A DNA stretch of 64,000 bases. Source: an uncultured Pelagibacteraceae bacterium (GTDB lineage Bacteria > Pseudomonadota > Alphaproteobacteria > Pelagibacterales > Pelagibacteraceae). The stretch is from the NCBI GenBank assembly GCA_902623785.1, contig CACNVG010000004.1:1-64000 (forward strand), read 5' to 3'. Shown one piece after another: positions 46,762-53,601 of this stretch (positions are counted from its first letter, which is position 1; each line of letters begins with the position of its first letter). The position numbers and the translations under genes are program-made. The notes beneath the pieces were generated by a model, which saw only the letters and a list, made by a program, of their open reading frames with translations, had not been told where the DNA came from and ran no database searches.

Positions 46762-47031
46762 CTAAATATCAACCTTTTCTGATCTCAATAATTTCAATTT
46801 TTGATCAACTCCACCTCTTCCGGAGTAACCTCCGAGGCCTCCATCAGACCTAATAACCCTATGACAAGGTATATTTGGGGCATAAGGGTTTGCAGCACAT
46901 GCATTAGCAACCGCACGAGCTGATTTTGGATTATTTATTGCTATAGCTACTTGTTTATATGTTTTTACAGATCCTTTAGGTATCATTCTAAGATAATTCC
47001 ATACCTGTAATTGAAATTTACTACCTTTCAT
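46762..47031 (-). CDS. ogt: Methylated-DNA--protein-cysteine methyltransferase, C-terminal catalytic domain only (89 aa)
   Basis: FQLQVWNYLRMIPKGSVKTYKQVA, active-site NIPCHRVIRSDGGLGGYSGG-like. Confidence 0.88.
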   Translation of the reverse strand: MKGSKFQLQVWNYLRMIPKGSVKTYKQVAIAINNPKSARAVANACAANPYAPNIPCHRVIRSDGGLGGYSGRGGVDQKLKLLRSEKVDI

Positions 47032-47032
47032 G

Positions 47033-47078
47033 AAGAAAAACCCCTGTTTCCTTGCACTTTTTACGGTGCAAAGAACAG
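47033..47078 (-). terminator. Terminator/attenuator-like hairpin plus T-tract directly before the ogt ATG
   Basis: Minus strand CTGTTCTTTGCAC-CGTAAAAA-GTGCAAGGAAACAG then GGGTTTTTCTT. Confidence 0.6.
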
Positions 47079-47228
47079 TAGTTTTGGCACGTCGTTGTAT
47101 GCGCTACCGCCATGCCTTCCGCCCTACGATTTTAGCGCTACTCCGTAAGACTTTCTGCCCCCTGGGCTTGGTCCTCTCGGCCTTTCCCCAGTCGGCCAGT
47201 TAAGGGTTGCCCCTTAATTCATCTCACA
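47033..47228 (-). ncRNA. Candidate structured RNA / structured leader upstream of ogt
   Basis: GC-rich island in AT-rich surroundings; GNRA-capped hairpin TTAAGGG-GCAA-CCCTTAA; GCGCTA...TAGCGC long-range stem; terminal 13-bp hairpin followed by GGGGTTTTTCTT. Confidence 0.55.
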
Positions 47229-47303
47229 ATAACAAACTACTAAGGTTGAATGTATCACTTTTTAAGCGATTAAACTGGATAGGTGTGAATAACGTTGATA
47301 ACT

Positions 47304-47468
47304 CTAAAAGTACAATAATGAGATAATACCAAATAAGCTTAAAATTAATACTGCTATCAAAATATATATGGATTTCTTTTTCTCCGGCTTATCCAATTTT
47401 TCAAATTTAAACAGCACAAAAAAAACTATTCCAATTAAAGCTAAAGCTAAAATTATATATTTTAACAT
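47304..47468 (-). CDS. Small two-TM membrane protein (54 aa, absent from the ORF track)
   Basis: MLKYIILALALIGIVFFVLFKFEKLDKPEKKKSIYILIAVLILSLFGIISLLYF; two hydrophobic spans joined by a charged loop. Confidence 0.5.
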   Translation of the reverse strand: MLKYIILALALIGIVFFVLFKFEKLDKPEKKKSIYILIAVLILSLFGIISLLYF

Positions 47469-47490: not shown

Positions 47491-47519
47491 TTGACATCTT
47501 AAATGGCTTATATTATGTT
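47491..47519 (+). promoter_or_regulatory. Putative promoter of the tyrosine recombinase gene
   Basis: TTGACA (47491-47496), 17-nt spacer, TATGTT (47514-47519). Confidence 0.5.
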
Positions 47520-47544
47520 TCCGATAATTAATGGTTATCGGAAA
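47518..47544. promoter_or_regulatory. Operator-like palindrome TTTCCGATAA-ttaatgg-TTATCGGAAA
   Basis: Perfect 10-bp inverted repeat between the putative -10 and the ATG at 47548. Confidence 0.6.
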
Positions 47545-47547
47545 AAT

Positions 47548-48462
47548 ATGAATGATTTAATAACTGATGTTAAAAACCTTGAAATTGAAACTTTAAAGAA
47601 TTTAAAAAATTCTAAGGCTCATAATACATTAAGGGCTTATCAAGCTGATTTTAGGGATTTCTCTGCTTTTTGTGCCAAGAATGGTCTAAGCTCATTACCA
47701 AGTGAACCAAAAATTATAGCAATTTACCTTACTCATCTTAGCTCATTTTCAAAGTATAGCACTTTAAAAAGGAGATTAGCCTCAATAAAGGTTATTCATA
47801 AATTAAAAGGTCATTATATAGATACAAAACATCCAATAATTACTGAAAATTTAATGGGTATAAAAAGGAAAATGGGTGTTAAACAATCAGCTAAGAAACC
47901 TCTATTAATCAATGATTTAAAATCTATAGTTAAAGTAATTGATGAAGAAAAAAATAACTTTAAGAGATTACAAAATAAAGCTTTATTGTTAATTGGATTT
48001 TCCGGTGGATTTAGACGATCGGAACTTGTTTCGATAGAGTATAATGATTTAGATTTCGTTACAGAAGGTGTAAAAATAGTCATTAAACGATCAAAAACAG
48101 ATCAAACTGGACTAGGAATGACCAAGGCAATCCCCTACTTTGATAACAAAATTTATTGTCCAGTTACCTCTCTTAGAAATTGGATCAATTTTTCAAATAT
48201 AGATAGCGGCAAGATATTTGATATATCGGACAAAACAGTAGCTTTAACAATTAAAAAATACGCCTTACTTGCTGGATTAGACCATAAAAGATATGCGGGA
48301 CACAGTTTAAGATCAGGTTTTGCTACATCAACAGCAGAAACAGGAGCTGATGAAAGAAGTATAATGGCAATGACAGGTCACAAAACTACACAAATGGTAA
48401 GAAGATATATTCAAGAAGCCAATCTATTTAAAAATAACGCACTCAACAAAATTAAAATATGA
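47548..48462 (+). CDS. Tyrosine-type site-specific recombinase/integrase (start MNDLITD proposed, trimmed from 47503)
   Basis: GFSGGFRRSELVSIEYNDL, C-terminal HSLRSGFATSTAETGADERSIMAMTGHKTTQMVRRYI (R..HxxR..H..Y). Confidence 0.92.
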   Translation: MNDLITDVKNLEIETLKNLKNSKAHNTLRAYQADFRDFSAFCAKNGLSSLPSEPKIIAIYLTHLSSFSKYSTLKRRLASIKVIHKLKGHYIDTKHPIITENLMGIKRKMGVKQSAKKPLLINDLKSIVKVIDEEKNNFKRLQNKALLLIGFSGGFRRSELVSIEYNDLDFVTEGVKIVIKRSKTDQTGLGMTKAIPYFDNKIYCPVTSLRNWINFSNIDSGKIFDISDKTVALTIKKYALLAGLDHKRYAGHSLRSGFATSTAETGADERSIMAMTGHKTTQMVRRYIQEANLFKNNALNKIKI

Positions 48463-48547: not shown

Positions 48548-49408
48548 ATGTTAGAGAGAAATAAAGAAGTTTCTATTGTTATCATATCTCATAAAAGTAA
48601 AAAAAAAGTTTTAAATTTGGTTAAAAATATATCTAATGATTTCAAAATAATTATAATTGAGAATTCTTCAGATAAATCAATAGAAAAAGAACTATCCAAA
48701 CATAAGAGAAACTTACAAATAATATTTTCTGAAAATAATGGATATGGAAGTGCAATAAATCTAGCAAGGACTTATGTTGCTACAAAATACTTTTTTGTTT
48801 TGAACCCAGATATGCAGAAAATTGATGATAAATTAATCAGTGTTTTTTATGAATCAGCAAAAGAATTGAATGATAATTTTGGAGCTTTGGGACCTAGATT
48901 TGAAAATGTAAGCGATAAATCACATAAACAATCAGATATTAAAAAAAAATATGGATTGATAGAGTCAATAAGTGGATCTGCAATGTTTTTTTGTTCTGAA
49001 GTATTTGATAAAAATAAAGGATTTGATGAAAATTTCTTTTTATATTTTGAGGAAACAGATTATTGTTATAGATCAAATAAAAATGATTTTAAAATTTATC
49101 AGATAAATTCTCAAAAGGTATACCACGACATCGGCACATCTGTTGAAACAACAAATGAAGAAGATATTAATAAATTGAAAAATCTTTATACGTGGCATTT
49201 TATCTGGTCAAAATTTTATTTTAGTAAAAAAAGATTTGGTAAATTTATAAGTATAATATTATTTACTCCTATTTTACTTAGAATATTAATTAGAATTTTA
49301 TTTTATAAAATAATAAAAGACCAAGAAAAACTTGAGAGATCTACAGTAAGATTTGACGGTTTAAAGTGTTCTATGATTGGAAAAAAATCATTTATGAGAA
49401 TAAACTAA
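48548..49408 (+). CDS. Family 2 glycosyltransferase (rhamnosyltransferase-like)
   Basis: ENNGYGSAINLARTYVATKYFFVLNPDMQ, GFDENFFLYFEETDYCYR. Confidence 0.85.
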   Translation: MLERNKEVSIVIISHKSKKKVLNLVKNISNDFKIIIIENSSDKSIEKELSKHKRNLQIIFSENNGYGSAINLARTYVATKYFFVLNPDMQKIDDKLISVFYESAKELNDNFGALGPRFENVSDKSHKQSDIKKKYGLIESISGSAMFFCSEVFDKNKGFDENFFLYFEETDYCYRSNKNDFKIYQINSQKVYHDIGTSVETTNEEDINKLKNLYTWHFIWSKFYFSKKRFGKFISIILFTPILLRILIRILFYKIIKDQEKLERSTVRFDGLKCSMIGKKSFMRIN

Positions 49409-49416
49409 AATAAATT

Positions 49417-50175
49417 TCATTTACGTTTTAAAAATATTTTTTCAAAATTTGAGGTTTTATAGGGTTTTTTAAAATTATCACCTTGGATTGATTTTGTGCA
49501 ATCAAAACCCTCTTGTTGAAATGCGATGCCAAAAAGTCTTTCCATGCACATTTGTTGCTCTTTATTTGTAGGTAATATTTTATGAAAGTTTTTTTTCTTA
49601 AGTTTAGTCATAACTAATTTTTTGCACATAAAGATAGGGCCAAAAACACTCACCCAACTTAGTGGTAAAAAAAATTTAGTTTTTTTTAGTTGTCTTTTAG
49701 CCCATTTTATTTCTCTTTTGTTGTTAAAGCCGTACAAATCGTGGATTTTCTTATCTTTTTTGAAAATATCTGTAACTTTTCTAGAAATGTTTTTTTTTGT
49801 TTTTTTAAAGGAAACTCCGCCTACAATATTAGCTGATAAAAAATATCTAAAAGTATTCAATGTATTTTGTTCAAATCTGCTTAAATTAGCTTTGAATTTT
49901 ACAGAGTCCTGCAAGAAATAAAAATATTTATATTTTGAAAATTTTTTAAAGCCTATCCAATATGCACCGGTGTCGTAATTTTTATTTTTTGAATCAAGAA
50001 CAATAACATTATTCTTTCTCAACTTATCAAAGTAGGTTTTATTAGGAGAGTTACTATCTACAACTACTATTTTTGGATTAAAATAATATTTCTTTATTGA
50101 CGCTACACATTCAAGAATAGCATTATTACTCCCATCAAAATAACAAGAAATAATAAATATTCTTTTTGATTTCAT
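49417..50175 (-). CDS. Glycosyltransferase-like protein
   Basis: PKIVVVDSNSPN, NYDTGAYWIGFKKFSKYKYFYFLQDSV. Confidence 0.55.
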   Translation of the reverse strand: MKSKRIFIISCYFDGSNNAILECVASIKKYYFNPKIVVVDSNSPNKTYFDKLRKNNVIVLDSKNKNYDTGAYWIGFKKFSKYKYFYFLQDSVKFKANLSRFEQNTLNTFRYFLSANIVGGVSFKKTKKNISRKVTDIFKKDKKIHDLYGFNNKREIKWAKRQLKKTKFFLPLSWVSVFGPIFMCKKLVMTKLKKKNFHKILPTNKEQQMCMERLFGIAFQQEGFDCTKSIQGDNFKKPYKTSNFEKIFLKRK

Positions 50176-50603
50176 TAAACTTTTATAAATTTTGAAATAT
50201 TATCTGTGCATACTCCACTACACATGGAAAAGTCCTGATCTTTTTTTGGAAGAACACATATACTGTTTTGAATTAAGGGTTTTCCAGGGTATACCCAGAT
50301 ATAACCCTCGCTAGTGATTGTATAATCATCCTCTTGATGCCAAAAATAATGACAATTAACATTTTTAATAGCCTCTAATGACATGTGGTCTTTTGCATGA
50401 CACCACAAATTATGATGAGTTAAAAATTGTTTATTTATCTTAAATTTCGGCTCATCATGACCAAGATAAAAATTACCCATATGATATCTCACATCAATTT
50501 CAACATGAATGTTTTTTTCTAATAACTTAGAAATATGATCAGGATTATTTTCTAAATTGTCATCTGGTCCATTAATATAACCTCTATGTGATATGTACAT
50601 CAT
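50175..50603 (-). CDS. Short glycerophosphodiester phosphodiesterase (GDPD)-like protein
   Basis: ISHRGYINGPDDNLENNPDHI...HVEIDVRYHMGNFYLGHDEP...WCHAK. Confidence 0.55.
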   Translation of the reverse strand: MMYISHRGYINGPDDNLENNPDHISKLLEKNIHVEIDVRYHMGNFYLGHDEPKFKINKQFLTHHNLWCHAKDHMSLEAIKNVNCHYFWHQEDDYTITSEGYIWVYPGKPLIQNSICVLPKKDQDFSMCSGVCTDNISKFIKV

Positions 50604-50604
50604 A

Positions 50605-51486
50605 TTAAATCTTAAAATTTTTAAATTTACTATATATTAATTTTAAATAAAAATAATTTAATTTGCATAAAAATAAATTTAAAAAATATGAAATATTTTT
50701 AATTGGATCGTTTAGACTGTTTTCGTATCTTTTACCTGACAATAAATATTTTTTTTTAAAAAACTTTATTGATATCCCCCATTTTAAAAGAAATATTTTT
50801 GACCCCTTGCTTCCAGATTCAGTTTTAATAGTTGGATGATGTTTGTATTGTCGAGTTACCGTAGATCCAAAATGATATACTCTACATTTATTTAAACCTT
50901 TAAATATTCTTACCCCCTCTTTCCACAATTTCATATTTAAATCTGGGTCTGAACCAGTTCCAGGATAATATTCTTCACTAAAACCACCTACTCTTTCCCA
51001 CAACCTCTTATGTATGAGATGTGGGGCCCACGTTGATCCTTGAAAGTCAAAATATTCTTTATTATTATAATTCTTTAGTAATTTTGCTTCATCAAATTCT
51101 TCAATTGAATTTCCACAATCAAAACTTAAAGGACCATTATTCATCATTAAACCTGAAAGATAAAATTTATTATGACCAATCTTATCAATTTCACTTTTTA
51201 AAACTGTATCCCATTCGGGGCAAAAATAAAAATCATCATGTGAATATAAAATATAATCTGTTTTTGCTTTTTTGGATGCAATATTCATACCTTCACAAAT
51301 ACCAGAGTTATATTTTGAATAAGTATACTCTAATTTTTCTTCTTTTAAAAAGTCGATTGTCCCATCTGACCCTACATTAACATGTGGAATTATTTGATGA
51401 TTAAATTTCGAATTTTTTTTTATACTTTTGATGCAGTTTTTAAGGTATTTTAAATTATTAAAGGTAGGTATGATAATTGAAAACAT
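50605..51486 (-). CDS. Family 2 glycosyltransferase
   Basis: FSIIIPTFNNLKYLKNCIKSIKKNS, YNSGICEGMNIASKKAKTDYILYSHDDFYF. Confidence 0.85.
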   Translation of the reverse strand: MFSIIIPTFNNLKYLKNCIKSIKKNSKFNHQIIPHVNVGSDGTIDFLKEEKLEYTYSKYNSGICEGMNIASKKAKTDYILYSHDDFYFCPEWDTVLKSEIDKIGHNKFYLSGLMMNNGPLSFDCGNSIEEFDEAKLLKNYNNKEYFDFQGSTWAPHLIHKRLWERVGGFSEEYYPGTGSDPDLNMKLWKEGVRIFKGLNKCRVYHFGSTVTRQYKHHPTIKTESGSKGSKIFLLKWGISIKFFKKKYLLSGKRYENSLNDPIKNISYFLNLFLCKLNYFYLKLIYSKFKNFKI

Positions 51487-51489
51487 AAA

Positions 51490-53601
51490 TTAAATATTTT
51501 CCCAAAAAAACTTCTTTTTAATATTTAATGTTTTTTTAATTATGAAATCAGCAACTATAGTTGAATTGAAATATTTAAAATATTTGTCCCTACCACGCTT
51601 TGCTATTTTACGCCTTAATTTATTATCATTGCTAAATTTTATAATCTTTTCTGATAAATCATTTATGTTTTTATATAGAACAATTTCATTTTTATTAAAA
51701 AAGTTTCCAATTTTAGTTTTTTGATCTACCATTACTAGTAAACCATTTCCAATTAACTGCGCAAACCTATCACTCGAATAAAATTTAGCTGGTTTTCCTT
51801 GACTTAAATTTAAGCCAATTTTAGATTGTGAAATTGCTAACAAGTAATTATCTGCCCATACAGGTTGGACACCGTTCATGCCATACAAATCAAATCTAAC
51901 ATTAGGTGTAACTTTTATTAATTTGTTTATAAAGTTTTCTCTTTCATCAAATTTACCTCTTTTAAGTACACCCCTATGCACTCCATGACTCATTGCAAAA
52001 AAAACATCATTGTTAAAACTTGTATTGTTATAATTTTCAAGCTTCTCAAATGAATGATCTACTGGATTGGGTATATAAAAAACTTTGTGCTTACTTGGTA
52101 AGTTTAAGGACCTTGGCTCAGTAGTGCAAAAACTTGCATCCATTATATCTATTTTATCTAAAAATCTTTTTTTATTGCCGATCCATTGAGTATCCATCCT
52201 ATCTAGAAACCACTGTGCAATTTTTATGTGAGGATAGTTTTTCTTTATGTATAGTAAGGTATCTTTTCTAATAAGATCGGCATGACCCAAAATTAACAAA
52301 TCTGGTACATAATTACTAATTACGTCTATAAGTTTTTTATTTAATCTCTTAGAACCATTTATATCATTTAAACTTCTGTAATAACTTACAATGTCTCTAT
52401 CACTAAATTCTAGTACACTATGATTTAATCTTATTAGTCCATTATTAATCCTTTTACCAGTGTTGTAAAATAGTCTACCATTGTGTCTTTCGTTGAAGTT
52501 TGTGACGTGAAGGATCTTTAGTTTTTCCTTAATCAATGATCCATTAAAATTCAACTTAAATTGAATTATATTTTTTCTATAGTCATCAATTTTTTTACAA
52601 ATATATTCATCTGTAAGGTAAAAGTTTTTTAAGGATGATTTTTGTAAATTTAATCTTTGATTTGAATTTTTAATTAAATTTTCTATTGCATTATAAATAT
52701 TTTTAATAGATAAATTTCTAATAATTACACCATTGGTAATAGTTTCAGGTAAGCCACCTTTATTTGACACAATAACCGCACATCCTCTACTTGAAGCTTC
52801 TAAACTAGTTCTACCAAATGGCTCCTCCCATCTAGAACAAGCAACAGCAATACTTGATTTTTTAAAATAAGAAAGAACTGTATTATGATTCTGATATCCA
52901 AGGACTTTTAAATTTTTGTGGTGAAAATAAAGTTTTTCTCTAGGCTCGTCACCAATAACAGCTGATTTCCAATCTGGATATTTATTAAGTATCTTTAAAA
53001 TAGCTTTGCCAAAAAGATCGTATCCTTTTGCAGAGTTTAATTTACCAACAAAAGTTATTAATTTTTCCTTTTTTTTAATATCAACAGTTACTTTATTAAT
53101 AGATTGATGAATTACCTCAAGTTTTTCAGATTTGTGATAAAACTTGTCAAGTTTTTTTAAAAATTGTTTCTTAGACCATTCACTATTAAAAATTATTTTT
53201 GAGCAATTTGATATTAAGTCTCTTCTTTCTTGAGATGTTTTAGATCCAATCATAGAAATTGGGTCATTATGAAAATATAAAACTTTTTTTGCTCCTAAAT
53301 TTTTTAGATAATTTATGTAATTTGGTCGATTATGAATTTCAATTATATCAACATCTTTTACTAAATGAAGATCAACAAATTTATTTACATAATCTTTTGT
53401 CTGACTTTTTAAAAAAGTTTTCTTGAGTTCAATATTTACATAATTATCTGAAAATTTTTCCTTTAAATTTGTGGATCCATATACTGTTATATTTTTTTTA
53501 AAAAAACTTATCTTGTTCATTGAGTTTATAAAAAGAGATACGGCTCCTGGATATAAAGGGGAATAATTTTCTTTATAAGGCAAAAGAATTGAAATTTTCA
53601 T
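51490..53601 (-). CDS. Double-domain glycosyltransferase: N-terminal GT4 plus C-terminal CgeB-like module
   Basis: GT4: ITFVGKLNSAKGYDLF, RWEEPFGRTSLEASSRGCAVIVSNKGGLPE; C-terminal half: KILHVTNFNERHNGRLFYNTGKRINNGLIRLNHSV...IGLNLSQGKPAKFYSSDRFAQLIGNG. Confidence 0.8.
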   Translation of the reverse strand: MKISILLPYKENYSPLYPGAVSLFINSMNKISFFKKNITVYGSTNLKEKFSDNYVNIELKKTFLKSQTKDYVNKFVDLHLVKDVDIIEIHNRPNYINYLKNLGAKKVLYFHNDPISMIGSKTSQERRDLISNCSKIIFNSEWSKKQFLKKLDKFYHKSEKLEVIHQSINKVTVDIKKKEKLITFVGKLNSAKGYDLFGKAILKILNKYPDWKSAVIGDEPREKLYFHHKNLKVLGYQNHNTVLSYFKKSSIAVACSRWEEPFGRTSLEASSRGCAVIVSNKGGLPETITNGVIIRNLSIKNIYNAIENLIKNSNQRLNLQKSSLKNFYLTDEYICKKIDDYRKNIIQFKLNFNGSLIKEKLKILHVTNFNERHNGRLFYNTGKRINNGLIRLNHSVLEFSDRDIVSYYRSLNDINGSKRLNKKLIDVISNYVPDLLILGHADLIRKDTLLYIKKNYPHIKIAQWFLDRMDTQWIGNKKRFLDKIDIMDASFCTTEPRSLNLPSKHKVFYIPNPVDHSFEKLENYNNTSFNNDVFFAMSHGVHRGVLKRGKFDERENFINKLIKVTPNVRFDLYGMNGVQPVWADNYLLAISQSKIGLNLSQGKPAKFYSSDRFAQLIGNGLLVMVDQKTKIGNFFNKNEIVLYKNINDLSEKIIKFSNDNKLRRKIAKRGRDKYFKYFNSTIVADFIIKKTLNIKKKFFWENI

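Follow-up and report, generated by a model that had tools for sequence, protein, structure and literature searches.

A GC-rich block beside ogt in a Pelagibacteraceae genome is very probably an IMES-2 RNA gene with a predicted loop-loop helix

SAR11 bacteria rank among the ocean's most abundant cells and have few regulators. What, then, is encoded by a GC-rich block that stands directly before an ogt-like gene in a genome of this lineage? The block lies on the minus strand at 47033-47228 of the window, which is the whole stretch of DNA analysed here: 64,000 nucleotides from an uncultured Pelagibacteraceae bacterium (contig CACNVG010000004.1, positions 1 to 64,000). The original prediction described it as a GC-rich structured block with no recognisable RNA family, and left two readings open: a discrete non-coding RNA with its own terminator, or a structured leader of ogt.

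The block does have a recognisable family. In a cmscan search against Rfam, positions 47084-47224 of the window (minus strand) matched RF02035, IMES-2, over the full length of the model (positions 1-141), with 157.3 bits against a cut-off of 54.7 and an E-value of 2.6e-41. This was the sole family returned for the block. The predicted composition and structure were borne out as well. The IMES-2 core has a GC content of 57%, compared with about 29% for the whole window, and 47033-47228 read as minus-strand RNA folds with -74.1 kcal/mol (z = -4.76), a stability reached by none of 200 dinucleotide shuffles. It is well supported that this copy is a further instance of a catalogued family and not a novel class. 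The joint claim that the block is the IMES-2 gene, and that this gene is discrete, is very probably correct judging from the sequence comparisons below. A paper describing IMES-2 itself was not found in the open literature. The additions made here are a predicted kissing helix, the gene boundaries with a distal promoter element, a changed genomic context and a patchy presence. Table 1 gives the features of the locus.

Table 1. Features of the IMES-2 locus and its neighbours, in window coordinates
Feature	Position	Strand	Basis
ogt-like gene, 89 aa, next gene downstream	46762..47031	-	PF01035, E 1.8e-32
Terminator-like hairpin (47044-47078) with GGGGUUUUUCUUC tail	47032..47078	-	Sequence; downstream hairpins in homologues
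IMES-2 RNA core (RF02035, model positions 1-141)	47084..47224	-	cmscan 157.3 bits, E 2.6e-41; alignment
Helix H4, 13-nt loop	47086..47116	-	Double changes at 5/9 pairs
Loop 4 half of putative kissing helix, UAGCGC	47101..47106	-	Compensatory changes with loop 3
Helix H3, 15-nt loop	47121..47151	-	Double changes at 8/8 pairs; 97% of cells paired
Loop 3 half of putative kissing helix, GCGCUA	47133..47138	-	Compensatory changes with loop 4
Helix H2, long hairpin with purine-rich internal loop (GAAA/CAAG) and GAGA apical loop	47155..47199	-	Double changes at 7/11 outer pairs
Helix H2, inner stem	47171-47182	-	Double changes at 3/4 pairs
Helix H1, 7-bp hairpin with GCAA (GNRA) loop	47200..47217	-	100% of cells paired; double changes at 5/7 pairs
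-10-like element TTTGTTATTGT, directly before RNA 5' end	47226..47236	-	Aligned upstream regions; inferred
-35-like element GTGATA	47253..47258	-	Aligned upstream hexamers
Distal tandem element TTATCAACG-TTATTCACA, two abutting 9-mers resembling DnaA box TTATCCACA	47284..47301	-	Mismatch scoring
Tyrosine recombinase gene, divergent upstream neighbour in g1	47503..48462	+	PF00589, E 9.3e-20

The nested fold was assessed in a structural alignment of 63 homologues picked from whole-genome matches, 60 of them distinct. Covariation was strong: double-sided changes occurred at 28 of the 39 nested stem pairs among the distinct homologues. The covariation score was 0.397 compared with 0.190 in shuffles, 0 of 500 of which scored as high, and slid controls gave about 0.05-0.11. 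The 7-bp GCAA hairpin proposed at 47200-47217 turned out to be exact and conserved, with 100% of cells paired in the 60 distinct homologues. A GGCC...GGCC pairing suggested next to it is not conserved, with 69% of cells paired and a double change at one pair only. Covariation instead backs the pairing of CUGGCC with GGGCAG, and of GGCC with the strand facing it across the GAGA loop. Other conserved stretches are unpaired in the alignments, namely the AGAAAG joining strand and the AAAAU and ACAAC parts of loops 3 and 4.

Loops 3 and 4 also appear to contact each other. The GCGCUA...UAGCGC pairing had been read as a hairpin of its own; the pairing itself is real, but it joins the loops of two separate hairpins, and its proposed extension by GUA/UAC shows no covariation. 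The predicted arrangement is a kissing helix formed within one molecule, in which the loop of hairpin 3 pairs with the loop of hairpin 4, and it is supported by several comparisons. Double changes are seen at three of its six pairs, with a covariation score reached by 0 of 500 shuffles. Of 19 distinct loop pairs, 18 have a complementary run of 5-8 bp between loop 3 and loop 4, and the observed mean complementarity was equalled by 0 of 2000 shuffles of loop partners, figures to be read with an alignment fitted to the nested structure and related sequences that inflate shuffle tests in mind. For example, both loops have changed together at loci L041 (UAGCACUA with UAGUGCUA), L048 (UCGCUG with UAGCGA), and L301 and L049 (AGUACU types), as well as in the forms from genus g2 (AGCACU with AGUGCU). 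The outermost of the six pairs is broken in 27 of 60 homologues. Dimerisation would be possible too in the many homologues that have a palindromic loop 3. A homodimer in place of the intramolecular contact was considered and rejected: loop self-complementarity is lost in several homologues, and the complementarity of loop 3 with loop 4 is kept. The Rfam display, in which the kissing contact does not appear, is uninformative here because a covariance model is unable to show such a contact.

The RNA also seems to have defined ends. The bulged hairpin and following U-run predicted right before the ATG of ogt are both present. A stable downstream hairpin was found in all 22 of 22 non-redundant sequences (median z -6.15), 14 of which have a run of at least four T, and by a lax test 119 of the 124 distinct sequences downstream carry both a hairpin and a U-tract. 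When the frames of homologues were inspected, none stayed open over IMES-2, save for one sequence in one frame among 122 x 6, and the core length differs by 1-3 nt among homologues.

At the 5' end, a GTGAT-type hexamer lies 33-36 nt 5' of Rfam position 1 in every one of the 127 distinct upstream sequences, and a -10-like sequence comes after it. A sigma-70 consensus scan at the IMES-2 site returned no promoter and no canonical terminator because the -35/-10 elements and the bulged hairpin deviate from consensus. The tandem 9-mers further upstream have a mean of 4.07 mismatches out of 18 over 127 homologues, compared with mostly 7-9 in shuffled upstream sequences. As a doublet, TTATCCACA scores better than any of 300 permuted 9-mers, and locus L188 carries two perfect copies. 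The spacing between the tandem element and the -35-like hexamer comes in two classes around ten bases apart, roughly one helical turn; this is only suggestive because some of the doublets at a 10-base step look mis-registered. The -35-like element, the tandem 9-mers and the 3' hairpin are kept with IMES-2 across three genomic contexts. These features support a predicted discrete transcription unit of about 190 nt, comprising four hairpins, its own promoter-like elements and a 3' hairpin.

As for function, IMES-2 would be transcribed alone from its own promoter, possibly under the control of a factor binding the tandem TTATCCACA-like element, and would act in trans as a stand-alone RNA. Its compact fold, made up of kissing loops, two GNRA loops, a conserved purine-rich internal loop and joining strands, may provide a platform for a protein partner. 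A protein-binding RNA is favoured, tentatively and as the best guess, because the kissing helix, together with the GNRA loops and the purine-rich internal loop, suggests a rigid structure that offers a surface. Hfq (PF17209) was found in 0 of 30 SAR11 genomes and CsrA (PF02599) in 0 of 27, with control genomes positive for each. Since neither was detected in the host lineage, IMES-2 probably acts without them, and the standard routes of Hfq-dependent antisense pairing and CsrA decoy are disfavoured.

An antisense RNA that acts in trans without Hfq, pairing with mRNAs through conserved single-stranded segments, would make use of the unpaired AGAAAG, AAAAU and ACAAC stretches, and a small discrete RNA with a terminator-like hairpin would suit this role. 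However, Hfq was not detected in the genomes searched, and the most accessible-looking loops are engaged in the kissing helix. Antisense RNAs are also usually less elaborate and less covarying in fold than IMES-2. Such a mode of action is considered unlikely, though it ranks next after the protein-binding reading.

Quite doubtful, too, is an RNA coupled to replication or growth, with DnaA or a DnaA-like factor at the TTATCCACA-like tandem and action in trans via a protein not yet recognised. In Escherichia coli, DnaA favours boxes separated by 2-3 bp (PMC11317965), whereas the boxes upstream of IMES-2 are abutting; control by DnaA is therefore put forward as a hypothesis. Across 22 genomes, near-perfect TTATCCACA doublets were seen at just two sites, neither of them an IMES-2 locus, and no cluster of perfect TTATCCACA boxes was found. 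Within the window, most genes between 17500 and 64000 are oriented, on either side, towards a point at about 48 kb, and the cumulative GC skew peaks at about 48-50 kb, as would be anticipated close to a replication terminus. A fixed place at the replication origin was also considered and rejected. IMES-2 lies near the cumulative GC-skew maximum in the complete relative G015, and at no turning point in G001 or G164.

A functional replacement of 6S RNA as a regulator of RNA polymerase is improbable. Such a role would accord with the occurrence of 6S RNA (RF00013) in 0 of 28 SAR11 genomes, compared with 5 of 14 control genomes, and with the single copy of IMES-2, which is usual for 6S RNA too. 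RF00013 gave no match in the scanned stretch of the window at E up to 1. A survey of Pelagibacter ubique HTCC1062 names the SRP, RNase P and tmRNA RNAs, and searching it for the terms '6S RNA' and 'ogt' turned up neither (PMC2704228). Against such a replacement, IMES-2 consists of short hairpins in series and not of a long rod with a central bubble. Moreover, IMES-2 went undetected in about half of the order's genomes, and the ones among them that were tested show no 6S RNA either.

IMES-2 was found in 140 of 297 genomes of the order, one copy each, including a single copy in the window's own genome, and in 75 of 150 near-complete genomes of the order. Its function looks dispensable, since around half of the near-complete genomes have no detected IMES-2. 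A class-wide draw of 289 genomes yielded two matches only, the window genome and one member of its family. The conserved 22-base pattern was found in at least 119 stretches of GTDB genomes, and among the matches listed all were titled Pelagibacteraceae or Pelagibacterales; in the genome searches, IMES-2 matches were confined to Pelagibacteraceae. Divergent IMES-2 in genomes with no Rfam match was considered as well, and rejected: a model made from 21 homologues produced no more than weak matches, the best of which were protein-coding by sequence. Six weak matches to this model (L074, L075, L076, L077, L078 and L080) fall on a conserved coding junction that is rpoA/rplQ-like by sequence, a recurrent false positive. 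On a tree of ogt, at least three changes in IMES-2 presence are forced on the starred branches and five occur in the best tree, which is based on 267 columns of one gene and does not distinguish gain from loss.

The genomic context of IMES-2 differs between genera. At the g1 loci compared, it sits between a divergent tyrosine recombinase gene and ogt. In g5 and g6 an mnmA-like gene precedes it and a membrane-protein gene converges on it from the other side, and in g2 its neighbours are a nuclease-like gene and, in convergent orientation, an HMCES-like gene; the names of neighbours in g2, g5 and g6 were read from sequences, with Pfam run for the window proteins only. Just upstream of the putative IMES-2 promoter in the window is a 54-aa hydrophobic ORF (47304-47468) with no Pfam match, a place taken by a different small membrane-protein gene at other g1 loci. 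Adjoining the recombinase at 48548-53601 is a run of glycosyltransferase-like and surface-polysaccharide-type genes. The genes beyond the recombinase vary among g1 loci, and the area looks like a hypervariable region.

The recombinase flanking the g1 loci, together with the patchy presence and its repeated changes on the ogt tree, might suggest that IMES-2 is carried along by a mobile element associated with this gene. This is highly improbable, given that no homologue of the g1 recombinase lies nearby in g2, g5 and g6, that the copy number never exceeds one, and that IMES-2 had no match in phage or plasmid records or, searched as an exact pattern, in viral contigs.

The ogt-like protein of the window consists of the PF01035 DNA-binding/active-site domain alone and retains the PCHR active-site motif. 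Among the loci compared, ogt lies downstream of IMES-2 in genus g1 only, and g1 genomes without IMES-2 still have it. In some of these genomes, such as G092, ogt is directly preceded by a membrane-protein gene of the kind that precedes IMES-2 elsewhere, and no structured RNA was seen upstream of ogt in the g1 genomes without IMES-2. A structured leader or attenuator controlling ogt, which read-through of the g1 terminator-like hairpin directly before the start codon could feed, is the least probable explanation of all, because ogt persists in g1 without IMES-2 and the gene downstream in g2, g5 and g6 is on the opposite strand, leaving no same-strand gene directly after the RNA. IMES-2 is thus not an ogt leader in general, since three neighbourhoods occur. 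The other half of the original prediction, a discrete non-coding RNA with its own terminator, is supported by the promoter-like elements, the 3' hairpin, the covariation, the lack of an open frame and the unrelated neighbours in other genera.

A single-copy structured RNA found at three loci, and undetected in about half of the sampled genomes, amounts to a natural experiment on its role. In addition, the predicted kissing helix and promoter element lead to concrete mutants and a DNA-binding test, which goes beyond what the family entry alone provides.

Several known RNAs offer points of comparison. RNAs of the CsrB/RsmZ type, which sequester proteins, would be alike if IMES-2 titrates a protein; these act on CsrA, however, which was not found in the 27 SAR11 genomes. 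6S RNA is similarly single-copy, discrete and of similar length, but differs in its rod architecture, and IMES-2 has no RF00013 match. IMES-1 (RF02034) takes its name from the same marine series as IMES-2. It was considered as a stand-in for IMES-2 in genomes with no Rfam match to the latter, and rejected because 34 genomes of the order gave no IMES-1 match above cut-off. The closest likeness is to IMES-2 (RF02035) itself: the four helices and conserved loops are identical in type, and nothing distinguishes the window copy from the family. The Rfam covariance model for RF02035 describes this shared core, and the predicted kissing helix, the 3' hairpin and the promoter elements of the window locus fall outside its description.
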